Assembly (NCBI GenBank): GCA_017505525.1
Contig: JAFVPB010000009.1
Coordinates: forward strand, 52,765-105,480
Origin: Clostridia bacterium
Lineage (GTDB): Bacteria > Bacillota > Clostridia > UMGS1883
Reading direction: 5' to 3'
Length of the DNA: 52,716 nt
Shown here: in pieces, positions 5,299-11,946 of the stretch
How the letters are laid out: each line of letters starts with the position of its first letter
How positions within the stretch are numbered: the first letter of the stretch is position 1
Made by a program: the position numbers and the translations under genes
The notes under the pieces: model-generated
What the model was told of the DNA's origin: nothing
Databases searched by the model: none
What the model saw: the letters and a program-made list of their open reading frames with translations, nothing else

Positions 5299-5384
5299 TG
5301 GTTATCTGCAATTTTTATGGTATTGACAAATGTTTTCTAATTTGATTTGCAATATATATTCAATTTAGATATTTTTCCGAATTC

Positions 5385-5442
5385 TTGATATCAGAAAAGA
5401 GGAAAACTCATTAAATTGAATTTTCCTCTTTTCTGATATCAA
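5385..5442 (-). terminator. Terminator hairpin after the dacF-like gene
   Basis: Perfect 22-base inverted repeat (5385-5406 and 5421-5442) with a 14-base loop, starting four bases after the stop codon of the dacF-like gene. It is the longest perfect stem in the window outside recG. There is no long T tract beyond it, but the arm itself ends T-rich. It ends the envelope operon coming from the right; the rest of 5185-5445 holds only the mdh promoter and AT-rich sequence. Confidence 0.7.
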
Positions 5443-5445
5443 ATA

Positions 5446-6825
5446 TTAATTTGATTTATAATTGTTAATATCTTCCATCATTCTTCTGTTTCTTTCTAAT
5501 TTAGCTTTTCTGCGCTCGATTCTTTTAACTTTACGGCGATGCCTTTCTTTAAGTATAAGAAGAACTACAACAACAAAAATTGTAATAAACAGCCATGGCG
5601 ATTTTATAAAAGCTATAATCTTGTTTATAAAATAAGCAACTGGGTCAAAAGTATAGTTTTTATCTGCAACTAATGGAATACATCCAACGCTTACTCCATT
5701 TAAAAAATATTCTCTTATTCCTATTTCTTGCTTTTCTTCAATCGGAGCACTTACTGACGACGGAACTTTATCTTTGTATGTTATTTCTGATTTTTCAACT
5801 TTATTATCTTTTAGAGCTTCAAGGCTTTTTCCTGCTTTAAGAATAACTTTTTTTGTTCTTCTTGAATTAACAAGTTTTGTTTGAGCAACAATCTTGTCCT
5901 CACTTACAATTTTCACACTACTGTAGTTGCTAAAAACATAATCAAACATATTTTTGCAATCAACAAAACTTATGGCAACATTTTCTTCCGTTTTTGCTCC
6001 AAAAATCAAGCACAGAAGCTCTGTATTACCTTTTTTTGCTGAAGCTGCAATACAGCTTTTTGCTTCGGCCGTGTAGCCTGTTTTTATTCCCGTTGAATAT
6101 TTATAATAGTAATCGGCTCTTAAAAGACTACTTACAAAGTGATTTCGGTTTATAATCTTACGTTCGCTCTTTGATTTTTCTGTTGGAGTTATTGTGTAGG
6201 ATTGAGTTTTTACTATTTCGCAAAACTCAGGAATAGACATAGCATATCTTGCTAAAATTGCCATATCACGCGTTGTTGAATAATGACGTTCATCATGCGC
6301 GCCGGTAGGGTTTGTAAAATTTGTATTTTTCATTCCTATTTCCGTTGCTTTTTTGTTCATCATGGCAACAAATTCTTCTGTGCTCCCCCCCACACCTTCA
6401 GCTAAAACGTTAGACGCATCAGCCGCTGAAGCAAGAATCATTCCGTGAAGGAGTTGCCTTACAGAAAGCTTTTCACCGGTAATTATACCCATTTTACTGT
6501 CGCCTTCAGAAATATTTGCCAATGCAGTTTCACTCGCCTCATAAAGCTTTTCAAGGTTTGCATTTTCAAGCACTACAACGGCCGTCATAATTTCTGTTAT
6601 TTCAGCAGGAAATATTTTATTCTTGGATTTTTTTTCATACAATACACTACCTGTATTCAGGTCAAGAAGAATAACATTTGAAGATTTTGCACTCAACTTA
6701 TCATTTTTTACCGTTTCTTCTTGTGCGAGTGTTTCCTCGTTACTTATATTCGTTGCACCAACAAGCGAAACATTAATCGCAAAAATAATCATTATTAAAA
6801 TAAATGATAAAATTTTCTTTTTCAT
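5446..6825 (-). CDS. DacF-like D-Ala-D-Ala carboxypeptidase homologue with degenerate active site
   Basis: Member of the S11 (PBP5/DacF) family that normally trims D-alanine from peptidoglycan side chains outside the membrane. 459 residues: signal peptide/anchor at 1-24, the S11 domain about 45-300, and a C-terminal membrane helix near 405-425 followed by a basic cytoplasmic tail. The S11 fold is recognisable and the KTG box is intact (residues 248-250, GIKTGYT). However, where the family has the SxxK nucleophile motif, this protein reads PAEITEIMT, so Ser and Lys are both Glu (75 and 78), and the SxN box reads S-A-A (133-135). I rechecked the codons (gaa, gaa) on the minus strand. It is therefore probably not a carboxypeptidase and may be a structural or substrate-binding paralogue. 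It is last in the ftsEX/M23/ctpA operon, starting two bases after ctpA. Confidence 0.85.
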   Translation of the reverse strand: MKKKILSFILIMIIFAINVSLVGATNISNEETLAQEETVKNDKLSAKSSNVILLDLNTGSVLYEKKSKNKIFPAEITEIMTAVVVLENANLEKLYEASETALANISEGDSKMGIITGEKLSVRQLLHGMILASAADASNVLAEGVGGSTEEFVAMMNKKATEIGMKNTNFTNPTGAHDERHYSTTRDMAILARYAMSIPEFCEIVKTQSYTITPTEKSKSERKIINRNHFVSSLLRADYYYKYSTGIKTGYTAEAKSCIAASAKKGNTELLCLIFGAKTEENVAISFVDCKNMFDYVFSNYSSVKIVSEDKIVAQTKLVNSRRTKKVILKAGKSLEALKDNKVEKSEITYKDKVPSSVSAPIEEKQEIGIREYFLNGVSVGCIPLVADKNYTFDPVAYFINKIIAFIKSPWLFITIFVVVVLLILKERHRRKVKRIERRKAKLERNRRMMEDINNYKSN

Positions 6826-6827
6826 TT

Positions 6828-8009
6828 TCAGTCCTCAACAGAATTATTTGCTTTCAAATATTTTATCGCTTCTATATAGCAGAAATCTTTTTCTATATTT
6901 TTATAGTCGGGATCTTCATCAACAACAATATCAGGAACAACCCCATCACTTAGCCATTTTCCATCGGGAGCGTAATTTTTCTTAGAGGTAATTTTAACTG
7001 CTCCTTCAGATTTATCATATCTATTTAATTCAACAATTGATTGACTTACACCCTTGCCAAACGTTTTTTCTCCAATAATAACTGCTCTGTTACGGCCCTT
7101 CATCGAGCCTGCAAAAATCTCAGCAGCACTTGCTGATTGTTTATTAACTAAAACAACCATAGGAGCATTAAATGAATATTTATCTGCAGTGTATACTTTT
7201 TTATTATTATCTTTATCAAGCGTATACATTATCTGTCCATCACTTAAAAATAAATCGCACATTCTTATAGCACTATTAAATTCTCCACCGGGATTATCAC
7301 GCAAATCAATTATAATTCCTTTTATGTTTTGTGAATTGTTTTCTTTTATAATTTTTTCAAATTCCTTATATGCTTTCTCTGAAAATCCCGTATAGCGAAC
7401 ATATAGAATGTTTTCATTTATTGAAGAAGAAACACTATAGTAATCAATTTTTGCTCTGTCTACTTTAATGTCAATTAATTCGTTTTCACGTTTAACTTTA
7501 ATTACAACACTGCCTTTTTCCTTTAGTTCTTCTTCTCTGCAACGCAAATATGCTGTTGCATCGGCTATTTGCGTTGCATTATATTTCTTCGAATCAATGC
7601 TTATAATTATATCTCCGCCTTTAATTCCTGCTTTTTCAGCTGGGGCACCCGGCAAGGCTGATATAATCTCTATATTATTTGTTTCGGGGTTGGCAAAAAC
7701 TTCTACACCTATTCCACAGTAGTAACCATCAATCATTCCGAAAAGTTTATTTGCAGACTCTTCATCGTAATATGCAGCATATTTATCTCCTGTTGTCGAA
7801 ATAAGTGCACGAACTGCGGCATCTTCGGCAGCTTTTTTATCATATGTATTTATATAATTATCTTCTATAATTTTTTCAACTTTTTTCAATCGACTATAAT
7901 CTATTCCTGATTCATCGTTTAATACATACATATGCAAAGAAGAAACGATTATAGATGTAACAAAAAATGTGATGATTACAGATAATAAAATTTTGCTGCT
8001 GTTTTTCAC
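6828..8009 (-). CDS. ctpA: S41 family C-terminal processing peptidase
   Basis: Membrane-anchored serine protease of the CtpA/CtpB family. 393 residues: N-terminal membrane helix (about 8-28), PDZ domain around 95-180, then the S41 domain. The Ser-Lys dyad is intact, Ser in NKQSASAAEIFAG and Lys in GEKTFGKG. GTG is the start codon (8007-8009), with GGAGGG a few bases upstream. It follows the M23 hydrolase gene by 15 bases. In this position across Firmicutes, S41 proteases sit next to FtsEX-M23 hydrolase genes and may control turnover of the secreted hydrolase or act in sporulation signalling as CtpB does; which applies here cannot be seen. Confidence 0.9.
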   Translation of the reverse strand: MKNSSKILLSVIITFFVTSIIVSSLHMYVLNDESGIDYSRLKKVEKIIEDNYINTYDKKAAEDAAVRALISTTGDKYAAYYDEESANKLFGMIDGYYCGIGVEVFANPETNNIEIISALPGAPAEKAGIKGGDIIISIDSKKYNATQIADATAYLRCREEELKEKGSVVIKVKRENELIDIKVDRAKIDYYSVSSSINENILYVRYTGFSEKAYKEFEKIIKENNSQNIKGIIIDLRDNPGGEFNSAIRMCDLFLSDGQIMYTLDKDNNKKVYTADKYSFNAPMVVLVNKQSASAAEIFAGSMKGRNRAVIIGEKTFGKGVSQSIVELNRYDKSEGAVKITSKKNYAPDGKWLSDGVVPDIVVDEDPDYKNIEKDFCYIEAIKYLKANNSVED

Positions 8010-8024
8010 ACTAACCCTCCGATA

Positions 8025-9191
8025 TTATTTAAGATAATCAAGTGGATTTGCTGTTGCACCGTTAACACGCACTTCAAAATGAAGATGTGGTCCTGTTGAA
8101 ACACCTGTAGAACCTGCTTTTGCTATAACCTGCCCTTTTGTAACCTTTTCTCCCTGAGAAACCAACAAGCTACTATTATGAGCATATAATGTTGTAATTC
8201 CGCTTCCGTGGTTAACAATAACACATTTTCCGTATCCACCGTTTGTTGCTGCCAAAGTAACAGTTCCGTCTGCAGAAGCAAGAATATCAACGCCATAACC
8301 TGCACCGATATCAATTCCTGAATGGAATTTTTTTGTCTTATATACTGGATGAATTCTATAACCGTACTGACTTGTAATTCTTGAACTTGAAGGAACAGGC
8401 CATAAAAATTTCCCACCAGTATATTTTACAGGATTAGAAGAGTATGAAAGTGCATTTTTATTACTGTTTATAAGAGCCTGTTCCGCTCTTTCAGCACTTT
8501 CGTAAATTGCCTTATACTTTTCAACATCCTGAGAAAGAGAATCTACCAATGCCTGTTTTTTTGCAAGATTCTTTTCTAATGTTGATTTTCTTGCAAGTAA
8601 ATTCTCTTTGTTTTTATTTTGTCGTTCAATTATATCTTCAATTTCCTGTTTTGCTTTAATGATAATTTGCTTTGCTTCTTCAAGCTTATCCAAAACTTCA
8701 TTATCATACTGCATCATCTGTGAAATTAATTCTATACGTTCAATAAAATCACTGAAAGATTTTGCACCAAATATAATTTCTATGTAAGCAACGTCTCCAT
8801 TTTCATACATAACCTGGGCTCTTGTAAGAAAATCAGACTGATATTCATTAAATTCCTTTTCGGCTTTTTCAAGTTCCTTTTCTTTAAGCTCAAGGTCCTT
8901 TTCAGCCTGCTGTATTTCGTTTTCAATAAATATTATTTCGTCTTCTGTTCTGCTTATTTCATTATCCAAAGCATTAAATTCTTTAATGGCATCGCTATAT
9001 TTTGCTTCTGCTGCATCCACGTCTTTCTTTGCATCATCTGTTTTTTTCTTTGCATCATTTAACTGCGACTGCGATGGAGCTGCAATTACAGGCATAACTA
9101 CTGATGCAAGAAATGCCGTTACAATTAAAAGTGCACACAAGCAAGCAGCAATTCTTTTTATTAAATCACGTTTGTTTTTTTTAATTTTCAT
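8025..9191 (-). CDS. Coiled-coil M23 murein hydrolase (EnvC/PcsB-like partner of FtsEX)
   Basis: Secreted cell-wall hydrolase or hydrolase activator. After a signal peptide (about 8-40) come two long coiled-coil segments, rich in Lys, Glu and Ala, up to about residue 245, then an M23 (LytM) domain of roughly 120 residues. The zinc-site motifs HSGIDIG (HxxxD) and HLHFEV (HxH) are intact, so the domain should be an active endopeptidase rather than an EnvC-type inactive one. I chose the ATG at 9191 (388 residues) because GAGGTG precedes it and the protein then begins MKIKKNKR ahead of the signal helix. It lies directly downstream of ftsEX; in related systems FtsX contacts the coiled coil and gates the hydrolase domain. 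Known analogues are CwlO (NlpC/P60), PcsB (CHAP) and EnvC. Confidence 0.9.
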   Translation of the reverse strand: MKIKKNKRDLIKRIAACLCALLIVTAFLASVVMPVIAAPSQSQLNDAKKKTDDAKKDVDAAEAKYSDAIKEFNALDNEISRTEDEIIFIENEIQQAEKDLELKEKELEKAEKEFNEYQSDFLTRAQVMYENGDVAYIEIIFGAKSFSDFIERIELISQMMQYDNEVLDKLEEAKQIIIKAKQEIEDIIERQNKNKENLLARKSTLEKNLAKKQALVDSLSQDVEKYKAIYESAERAEQALINSNKNALSYSSNPVKYTGGKFLWPVPSSSRITSQYGYRIHPVYKTKKFHSGIDIGAGYGVDILASADGTVTLAATNGGYGKCVIVNHGSGITTLYAHNSSLLVSQGEKVTKGQVIAKAGSTGVSTGPHLHFEVRVNGATANPLDYLK

Positions 9192-9239
9192 AACACACCT
9201 CATTAGCTGTTGCAAAAATATCAAGTCTGAAATATTCTA

Positions 9240-10124
9240 TTAAACTTTAAGGTAACGCTTAATAGAAAGTCCACTTCCTGCTGCACCCATTAACACTCCA
9301 AATCCAGCCATGCACAGCGCAAGCAAAAGTGCTACTGACTCAAGCTGAACAAAGGCGAACATACTTACAATACCACTAATAGATCCGATCGCAGCATTAT
9401 ATCCAAGCATTATTATAACAAATGAAACTATGAACCCTAATGATCCAATTATAATTCCCTCGAGAACGAAAGGAGTTCTTATAAAATGATCTGTAGCTCC
9501 AACGAATTTCATAATTTTAATTTCTCTTTCTCTTGCATATACGCTAAGTTTAATTGTGTTTTGGATAATAAATATTGCCACAATCAAAAGAATGATCATT
9601 GCTATTATGCTGCCGTGCTTAACAATATCTGTAAAGCTTATTACCTTTCCAACTATATCCTGTCTGTTTCTTACCTCTTCTACGCCTGGAATCCTGGCTA
9701 TTTTTTTAACAACTGCTTCTGAATTTCTTATATCCATTAAAGAAACCTTAACGGAGCTTCTTAAAAAGTCTTTACCTTCAAGCCCTTCAAGAACATCCGC
9801 TCTGTCGCCGAGCATTTCTTTAAAATTAGTAAAAGCCTGCGCTTTGGTTTCAAGTTCTGCATTTTCCACGCCATCAATTTTCAGAATAGCTTCATACGCA
9901 CTTTTTTGTGTGGCATCAGTAACATCAGGATGGATATATGCTGTGAGCTGACACTGTGATTCAATTTGTCTGCTTATAAAATTCATATTAGCTGTAAAAA
10001 GGAAAAATACACCAAACAAGAACAAACAACACGCGACTGTTGCAAAAGAAGCAAAAGTCATAATTCCGTTTCTTACAAAAGAGCTTAATGCGCTCTTTAA
10101 ATAATATTTAAAATTTCTAAACAC
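9240..10124 (-). CDS. ftsX: Cell division ABC transporter permease FtsX
   Basis: Integral membrane partner of FtsE; the complex does not transport but transmits ATPase-driven motion to an extracellular hydrolase. The predicted protein has the FtsX layout: one N-terminal membrane helix (about 12-45), a roughly 110-residue extracellular loop, then three C-terminal helices. The GTG at 10124 is preferred: GGGGTG lies ten bases before it and the protein then starts with FRNFKYYLKSAL as family members do. A longer frame from the ATG at 10151 is possible but lacks a good ribosome site. The gene overlaps the ftsE stop by eight bases, indicating coupled translation. The M23 gene follows after 48 bases and is its likely partner. 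Confidence 0.92.
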   Translation of the reverse strand: MFRNFKYYLKSALSSFVRNGIMTFASFATVACCLFLFGVFFLFTANMNFISRQIESQCQLTAYIHPDVTDATQKSAYEAILKIDGVENAELETKAQAFTNFKEMLGDRADVLEGLEGKDFLRSSVKVSLMDIRNSEAVVKKIARIPGVEEVRNRQDIVGKVISFTDIVKHGSIIAMIILLIVAIFIIQNTIKLSVYAREREIKIMKFVGATDHFIRTPFVLEGIIIGSLGFIVSFVIIMLGYNAAIGSISGIVSMFAFVQLESVALLLALCMAGFGVLMGAAGSGLSIKRYLKV

Positions 10125-10803
10125 CAAGATTATACACCCCGTTTTCTTCATCTCTTACAACCATACCGTTATCAAGTTGGATAACACGTTTGCACATATC
10201 ATTAACTATTTTTTCTGAATGCGTAACCATAACAATGGTTGTTCCCATTTTATTAATCTCATCAAAGATTTTCATAATATCGGCCGATGTTTCAACATCA
10301 AGATTTCCTGTTGGTTCATCGGCAATTATCAACGATGGACTGTTAACCAAAGCACGTGCAATGCTTACTCTCTGTTGCTCTCCTCCGGATATTTCGTGGG
10401 GATAATTATTGCCCTTATCACCAAGGCCAACAAGAGTTAAAATCTTAGGCACTTTTCTTCTTATTTCTTTTTTACTCTTACCTATAATTTCCATAGCAAA
10501 AGCTACATTTTCAAAAACAGTCTTGTTTGGCAGCAACCTGAAATCCTGGAAAACAACGCCCTGCGCTCTTCTTAAATAAGGAATTTTGGATCTTTTAAGC
10601 GAATTAACTATAATTCCATCAATAATAACATCACCGCTTGTAGGCTTAATCTCGCCTGTCAGAAGTTTTATTGCGGAGCTTTTTCCTGCACCTGTTTTTC
10701 CTACAAGGAAAACAAACTCTCCAGAATTAATTGTAAATGATGCTTTATCAAGACCCACAACATCTTTGTCGTATATAACTGTTACGTCTTTAAATTCTAT
10801 CAT
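10117..10803 (-). CDS. ftsE: Cell division ATP-binding protein FtsE
   Basis: Cytoplasmic ABC ATPase of the FtsEX complex. Walker A GKTGAGKSS, signature SGGEQQRVSIARA, Walker B LIIADEPTGNLD and the switch His region VMVTHSE are all intact. 228 residues, the usual FtsE length, if the ATG at 10803 is used; the ATG nine bases earlier directly abuts the AAAGGA ribosome site and is less likely. It follows the PucR-type regulator gene by 20 bases and overlaps ftsX, so regulator, FtsEX and hydrolase form one transcription unit. Confidence 0.94.
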   Translation of the reverse strand: MIEFKDVTVIYDKDVVGLDKASFTINSGEFVFLVGKTGAGKSSAIKLLTGEIKPTSGDVIIDGIIVNSLKRSKIPYLRRAQGVVFQDFRLLPNKTVFENVAFAMEIIGKSKKEIRRKVPKILTLVGLGDKGNNYPHEISGGEQQRVSIARALVNSPSLIIADEPTGNLDVETSADIMKIFDEINKMGTTIVMVTHSEKIVNDMCKRVIQLDNGMVVRDEENGVYNLGV

Positions 10804-10823
10804 TTGATTCATCCTTTCGCTTA

Positions 10824-11909
10824 TTAAATGCGCATTGGCTTAGAAGTTAAATATTTTTTAACCATTAATGCAACTTTAAAAACAATAGCATGGTCAAAAA
10901 TTCTAAGATCAAGCCCTGTTATTTTGCGCACTTTATCAAGTCTGTAAACAAGGGTATTTCTGTGAACATATAATTGTCTTGATGTTTCTGAAATGTTTAA
11001 ATTATTATCAAAGAACATCTGTATAGTATAAAGAGTTTCAGAATCAAGTGAATCGATTGACTCTTTTTTAAACACTTCAGATAAAAACAGTTCACACAGC
11101 GTTGTAGGAAGCTGGTAGATAAGCCTTGCAATTCCTAAGTTATCGTAGGAAATTATGTATTTATCCTCATCAAAAACCTTTCCTACCTCAAGAGCAATTC
11201 TTGCTTCTTTATAGCTTTTTGCTATATCCTTAATATTTGCAGCTATCGTTCCTACACCAATTTTTACATTAACGAGAGCTTCCGTAGTGATTGTATCTAT
11301 AATTTGTCTTGCTAAAAGTTCGGTTTCTCCGTCTTTGATGTTATCTTTGGCTTCCCTAACAATAACGATTGTATTATTATCAAGGTCAACAACAAAATCC
11401 TTTCCGTTGTCCGGGAATATTCCACTCACAATATCAAACACATCAAGACCACGAACCTCATCATACTGAAGCGCAAATACAATACGGTTCATATCATAAG
11501 CAATATGAAGTTCTTTGCTTTTAACAAACACATCTCCAGGCAATACACTGTCGGCAAGAATGTTTTTAATAAAATTTGTCTTATCATATTTATCATTATG
11601 AATAACTCGTATGCTGGCTACACTTGCGCAGAGCATTTCTGCATGTTTTTGTGCATTTTCACCCGTGTCTGCTACGAAAACAATGTATTCTGCTTTACCA
11701 CGAGCAACAGAAGCACAAAACGTATAGTCTCCCATTTGTACAATATGCTTTTGATCATCAATACATTTTGAAATAATTAAGCTAATATTTTCTTCACTAA
11801 ACTCTCCGCCTGCAGAAGCTACAGTGCCTGATGGCTCAATAACTCCTACGCAACACCCTAAAATTTTATGCATTTGGTTAAGCATAGAGTTCAAGTATTT
11901 ATTTACCAT
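10824..11909 (-). CDS. PucR/CdaR-family helix-turn-helix regulator
   Basis: 361-residue predicted transcription regulator. The C-terminal 60 residues contain the PucR-type HTH: a long helix then NISETSRQLYVHRNTLVYRL, typical of the family that includes the sugar-diacid regulator CdaR (not the c-di-AMP protein of the same name). The middle is a GGDEF-like or sensor fold of the kind usual in this family, and the N-terminal 100 residues, with IEPSGTVASAGGEF, may be a small-molecule domain. The start was set at the ATG at 11909, six bases after GGGAGGG. Being first gene of the ftsEX operon, it may regulate this operon or sense a wall-related ligand, but its position could also be incidental. Effector unknown. 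Confidence 0.8.
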   Translation of the reverse strand: MVNKYLNSMLNQMHKILGCCVGVIEPSGTVASAGGEFSEENISLIISKCIDDQKHIVQMGDYTFCASVARGKAEYIVFVADTGENAQKHAEMLCASVASIRVIHNDKYDKTNFIKNILADSVLPGDVFVKSKELHIAYDMNRIVFALQYDEVRGLDVFDIVSGIFPDNGKDFVVDLDNNTIVIVREAKDNIKDGETELLARQIIDTITTEALVNVKIGVGTIAANIKDIAKSYKEARIALEVGKVFDEDKYIISYDNLGIARLIYQLPTTLCELFLSEVFKKESIDSLDSETLYTIQMFFDNNLNISETSRQLYVHRNTLVYRLDKVRKITGLDLRIFDHAIVFKVALMVKKYLTSKPMRI

Positions 11910-11946
11910 AAACATCCCTCCCAAAGGACTACTCATAGTTATCTAT

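Follow-up and report, generated by a model that had tools for sequence, protein, structure and literature searches.

The last gene of an FtsEX operon in an uncultured gut Clostridia bacterium encodes a full-length S11-family (DacF/PBP5-like) protein without the catalytic serine, which we read, with a probability of about 0.6, as a pseudoenzyme recruited to serve, anchored in the membrane, as a cofactor of the PcsB-type M23 hydrolase that the same operon encodes and FtsEX controls. The gene lies in the window, the stretch of 52,716 nucleotides that was analysed, together with the following features.

5384..5443, minus strand: 27-bp near-perfect hairpin directly 3′ of the S11 stop codon (z −9.95, without a classic U-run), the probable transcript end
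5446..6825, minus strand: S11 (DacF/PBP5-like) pseudoenzyme of 459 aa with signal peptide, S11 domain, PBP5_C, TM helix and basic C-terminal tail
5551..5595, minus strand: C-terminal transmembrane helix, about residues 411-425, predicted from the sequence
5656..5925, minus strand: PBP5_C domain, residues 301-390
6076..6084, minus strand: codons of K248-T-G250, the intact KTG motif
6421..6429, minus strand: S133-A-A135 codons where SxN is expected, without the Asn
6592..6603, minus strand: E75-I-T-E78 codons where SxxK is expected, with Glu in place of both the nucleophile Ser and the general base Lys
6828..8009, minus strand: CtpA-like S41 protease with PDZ domain, catalytic Ser and Lys present
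8025..9224, minus strand: PcsB-type hydrolase with a coiled coil and an M23 domain, HxxxD and HxH metal/catalytic motifs intact
9240..10151, minus strand: FtsX with extracellular domain
10117..10812, minus strand: FtsE ATPase
10824..11936, minus strand: PucR/CdaR-type regulator, which opens the conserved gene string

Homology places the protein in the S11 family. The intact reading frame (6825..5446 on the minus strand) has a significant match along the S11 domain to the Pfam Peptidase_S11 profile (PF00768; 179 bits, E-value 1.3e-52, residues 38-279, profile positions 4-239 of 239) and a PBP5_C match of 28 bits, nearly the whole S11 profile being covered. At 459 aa the gene is intact and full length, as the first-pass annotation had described it. 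An AF2 model (mean pLDDT 65) adopts a PBP5-like fold, and its best PDB matches are all S11 proteins, namely B. subtilis DacB and E. coli PBP5/PBP6 (VIA-align Z 25-29 over about 245-310 residues), with Streptomyces K15 C98 mutants also among the matches. The model was built from five sequences and has a pLDDT below 50 at residues 229-256, around the KTG motif; therefore, pocket geometry was not judged from it. The basic tail after the TM helix is presumed to be cytoplasmic. Canonical outgroup S11 proteins carry both the C-terminal helix and the basic tail, and these were rejected as a trait specific to the family of the window.

Alignment with solved S11 enzymes, including B. subtilis DacB (3mfd), places PAEITEIMTA on PAS/AS-xxK-IMTA and LASAADA on LxSGNDA, so that the Ser and Lys of SxxK correspond to Glu75 and Glu78 and the Asn of SxN to Ala135. 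The earlier claims that SxxK is replaced by E75-I-T-E78 and SxN by S-A-A, with KTG and the overall fold retained, thus hold, the replacement falling exactly on the SxxK position. No other segment aligns there that could be the true SxxK. Among the motifs of active S11 enzymes, SxxK and SxN (SxC in K15) are missing, and KTG/KSG is present. On these motifs, the protein is almost certainly dead as an acyl-serine carboxypeptidase.

We compared the gene across assemblies from uncultured organisms. Its family (f1), uncultured gut Clostridia, is represented by 21 genomes in the collection, 20 of them with an S11 orthologue: the genus of the window (g1, six species), its sister genus (g4, eight) and the genera g2, g3 and g5 (six together). 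A neighbouring family (f2, one genome) and a further family (f3, six) were also included. The five other g1 orthologues come from separate genomes, are 51-57% identical and all lack the Ser (A, A, G, D and A instead), which excludes an assembly or sequencing error. At the SxxK site the g1 proteins read PAEITE, PADLTK, PAGLTN, PAALTN, PAALTN and PSALTN, and at the SxN site SAA, SAA, SDS, SAS, SAS and SSS (third position A or S), with KTG in 6/6. Ser is hence replaced in all six members and Lys in five (position 75: E/A/A/G/D/A; position 78: E/N/N/N/K/N). A new ExxE motif conserved in the clade is refuted: ExxE is particular to this species, and only the absence of the nucleophile is common to g1.

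In the other f1 genera, as in f2 and f3, the nucleophile is retained. The g4 proteins carry PASTVK, SAA and KAG or KSG; those of g2, g3 and g5 PASTTK, SAG and KTG; the f2 protein PASITK, SAG and KTG; and those of f3 and other Clostridia PAS-xxK, SAN/SGN and KTG. Non-Asn third residues are tolerated in Streptomyces K15, which has an SxC motif, and for this reason the S11 proteins of g2, g3 and g5 may be active. Since g2-g5 keep SxxK, S11 was linked to the operon before it was fully inactivated, and its cofactor role may be limited to one genus.

With 27 canonical S11 proteins as reference, 51 positions show at least 85% identity, and g1 has lost five of them: S75, K78 and N135 as well as the conservative V273L and L293M. 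All three non-conservative losses fall among the seven catalytic motif residues (p about 0.0017, calculated by hand), and S133, K248, T249, G250, H181 and N228 are all retained. The losses in g4 include T77V, N135A, the conserved His (H181T) and T249A/S; SxxK stays. The g4 orthologues at L018:842-1942 and L050 show this second, different alteration of the site, with KTG changed to KAG/KSG, H181 and the SxN Asn lost and SxxK kept. A maximum-likelihood analysis of the S11 domain, with the motif columns left out, gives g1 as a clade (100/99) sister to g4 (99/96) within f1 (98/96); Ser loss maps as one change and Asn loss as two. By the resulting tree and the motif distribution, the SxN Asn was lost first, followed by SxxK in g1 or by the KTG Thr and the conserved His in g4. 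With a different half of the site disabled in each of the two sister genera, it seems that the scaffold stayed important when catalysis, and perhaps also the binding of a ligand, no longer was.

The gene is nevertheless under selection. In g1, pN/pS is 0.336 for S11, 0.334 for M23, 0.419 for CtpA, 0.275 for FtsX and 0.130 for FtsE (dN/dS is rough here, as dS approaches saturation), indicating purifying selection on S11 like that on its neighbours M23 and CtpA in the same genomes. The stem branches of g1 and g4 are equally long (0.30 each), though g4 keeps SxxK. Together with a reading frame free of disruptions in five independent genomes, this rejects a pseudogene. The reading of the gene as functional and not as a carboxypeptidase is likewise supported: its g1 relatives at the locus lack a normal SxxK, and relaxed selection left no sign over the gene as a whole. 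Sampling 30 paralogues from these genomes, we found 28 that keep SxxK, SxN and KTG and two that keep SxxK and KTG, so carboxypeptidase activity would be supplied elsewhere in the genome. By its motifs, nucleophile loss is particular to the operon copy in g1.

A third S11 paralogue in the window's own genome (contig C65, L158:6122-7414) has an SxC-like SAC for SxN, as in Streptomyces K15, and lies directly 3′ of genes that resemble asd, dapA and dapB by their N-termini, in a possible diaminopimelate operon. At L157:7484-10099, and also in G016:C15 and G018:C1, two S11 domains share one frame of 837-872 aa.

The six genes from PucR through FtsE, FtsX, M23 and CtpA to S11 share one orientation and are separated by small gaps or overlap, which bears out the proposed operon. 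FtsE, FtsX with its extracellular domain and a coiled-coil hydrolase with intact catalytic residues, all in one operon, make this a PcsB-type FtsEX system. HxxxD and HxH of M23 are kept in all genomes compared, and the CtpA Ser/Lys in nearly all; in G002 and G008 the Lys column holds E or V, possibly an alignment matter. S11 stands at the operon end on one contig in 17/20 f1 genomes, and the other three are compatible, two with CtpA-S11 at a contig edge and one with both parts at contig ends. All f3 genomes have PucR-FtsE-FtsX-M23-CtpA without S11, the gene after M23-CtpA in f2 is not S11, and among the matches listed for 60 relatives no S11 gene was found near FtsX outside f1. By gene order, the five-gene operon is older than the addition of S11, which is at its end only in f1.

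CtpA adjoins the S11 gene in g1, g3 and g4. Four g5 genomes lack the operon CtpA and have S11 directly after M23; g2 probably lacks this CtpA as well. As g5 lost CtpA and kept S11 beside M23, the M23 hydrolase is the likelier partner. This narrows the first-pass suggestion that the protein regulates the hydrolase or the protease, favouring the former over the latter; we infer the partner from conserved gene order, and synteny does not prove contact.

S11 proteins without the nucleophile also occur elsewhere in the class. In a background sample of 39 further S11 proteins, SxxK is present in 36; in L113 (G034) and L152 (G044) Asp replaces Ser and KTG is broken, and in L146 (G050) Thr replaces Ser. 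These three are separate from g1 on a quick tree, with long branches, and no FtsEX was found in their neighbourhoods. S11 pseudoenzymes therefore seem to recur in Clostridia, and the FtsEX link appears particular to f1. Two loci of other Clostridia families, L153:11365-12603 and L154:9743-11023, carry S11 domains with Asp for Ser (PGDLVK and PGDFSK) and broken SxN and KTG; one is at a contig end and neither is near FtsEX, and they differ from the operon copy as apparently separate losses. A 773-aa S11 protein at L155:6495-8813, beside a fumarase gene, reads ATMTK, with Thr for Ser, as well as SGAD and RPG, and has a long tail rich in Ala and Pro.

In the model that we favour, an S11 D,D-carboxypeptidase gene would have moved to the 3′ end of the PucR-ftsE-ftsX-M23-ctpA operon in the f1 ancestor, and the catalytic site would then have been dismantled while selection held the fold, PBP5_C and the membrane anchor. 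The protein would serve as a scaffold touching FtsX and/or the coiled coil of the M23 hydrolase, and its KTG half possibly still holds an uncleaved stem peptide in g1. At 13 positions f1 has a fixed residue that is rare in outgroups, and five of these positions lie within residues 374-394, the PBP5_C end and juxtamembrane stretch; they mark a candidate interface, though PBP5_C is variable in general.

The protein might instead be a non-catalytic sensor that binds the pentapeptide uncleaved and reports nascent wall to FtsEX, which we consider unlikely. The retained SxN Ser and KTG half, with H181 and N228, fit such a sensor in g1, but g4 keeps Ser and Lys and has lost T249, H181 and N135, so the binding half is not a shared constraint; moreover, the SxN Asn is lost throughout, and the low-confidence KTG region of the model gives no view of the pocket. 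Wall-peptide binding, as initially suggested, is thus possible in g1 and improbable as a function of the whole family. An adaptor or substrate of CtpA is less probable still. Protease adaptors such as NlpI and LbcA are known, and CtpA, its Ser/Lys intact in nearly all genomes, is the immediate neighbour in three genera, but the g5 gene order, in which S11 remains beside M23 after CtpA is gone, weakens this as the main role.

An enzyme with a rebuilt, for example Glu-based, active site is very improbable: KTG and the SxN Ser are kept and this species has acidic residues in E75 and E78, but residues 75 and 78 vary freely in g1, unlike a new catalytic pair. Equally improbable is a functionless gene decaying towards loss, which would account for the missing catalytic residues but not for frames without stops or frameshifts in six species that share 51-57% identity, for purifying selection as strong as on the neighbouring genes, or for the retention of all other conserved positions. 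We see roughly even odds for a fuller form of the cofactor reading: a dedicated S11-derived pseudoenzyme subunit of the FtsEX-hydrolase complex that arose by operon capture in one Clostridia family, with the site then dismantled differently in sister genera and a PBP fold made to regulate the cutting of the wall.

In Clostridia, annotation as S11 does not by itself denote a carboxypeptidase or beta-lactam target. As one operon spans genera with SxxK, with altered pockets and without the nucleophile, the non-catalytic service of S11 to FtsEX becomes directly addressable. Kinases and LytM proteins offer well-known pseudoenzymes; among penicillin-binding proteins, to our knowledge, they have hardly been described. 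In the open-access literature we found nothing on point on S11/PBP pseudoenzymes or on S11 in FtsEX operons, and no phage or viral relatives were found.

The protein shares fold, domain order, KTG and C-terminal membrane anchor with the S11 D,D-carboxypeptidases of the PBP5 group (DacF/DacA/DacB type), and differs from them in lacking the SxxK Ser and Lys and the SxN Asn and in its site in an FtsEX operon. EnvC, whose degenerate LytM domain activates amidases, likewise belongs to an FtsEX system and is a dead peptidoglycan hydrolase put to use as a regulator; there the M23 fold is dead, whereas here the M23 protein is of the active type, with intact motifs, and S11 is the dead one. One of the two closest analogies, beside SweC/SweD, is E. 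coli PBP4 (DacB, S13), a low-mass PBP tied to FtsEX-EnvC independently of its activity: its midcell localisation depends on FtsEX and not on activity, and it uses a non-catalytic domain to bind the coiled coil of EnvC (PMC9166362). PBP4, however, is an active enzyme of another family, encoded outside the ftsEX operon. FtsEX systems also recruit lineage-specific membrane cofactors, SweC/SweD being needed by B. subtilis FtsEX for wall-hydrolase control and SteA/SteB serving in C. glutamicum (PMC6705773). The PBP4 model and these cofactors lead us to propose a cofactor role. Like SweC/SweD and SteA/SteB, the S11 protein would be a membrane cofactor by which FtsEX controls a wall hydrolase; they are unrelated to it in sequence and, unlike it, not derived from a penicillin-binding protein.
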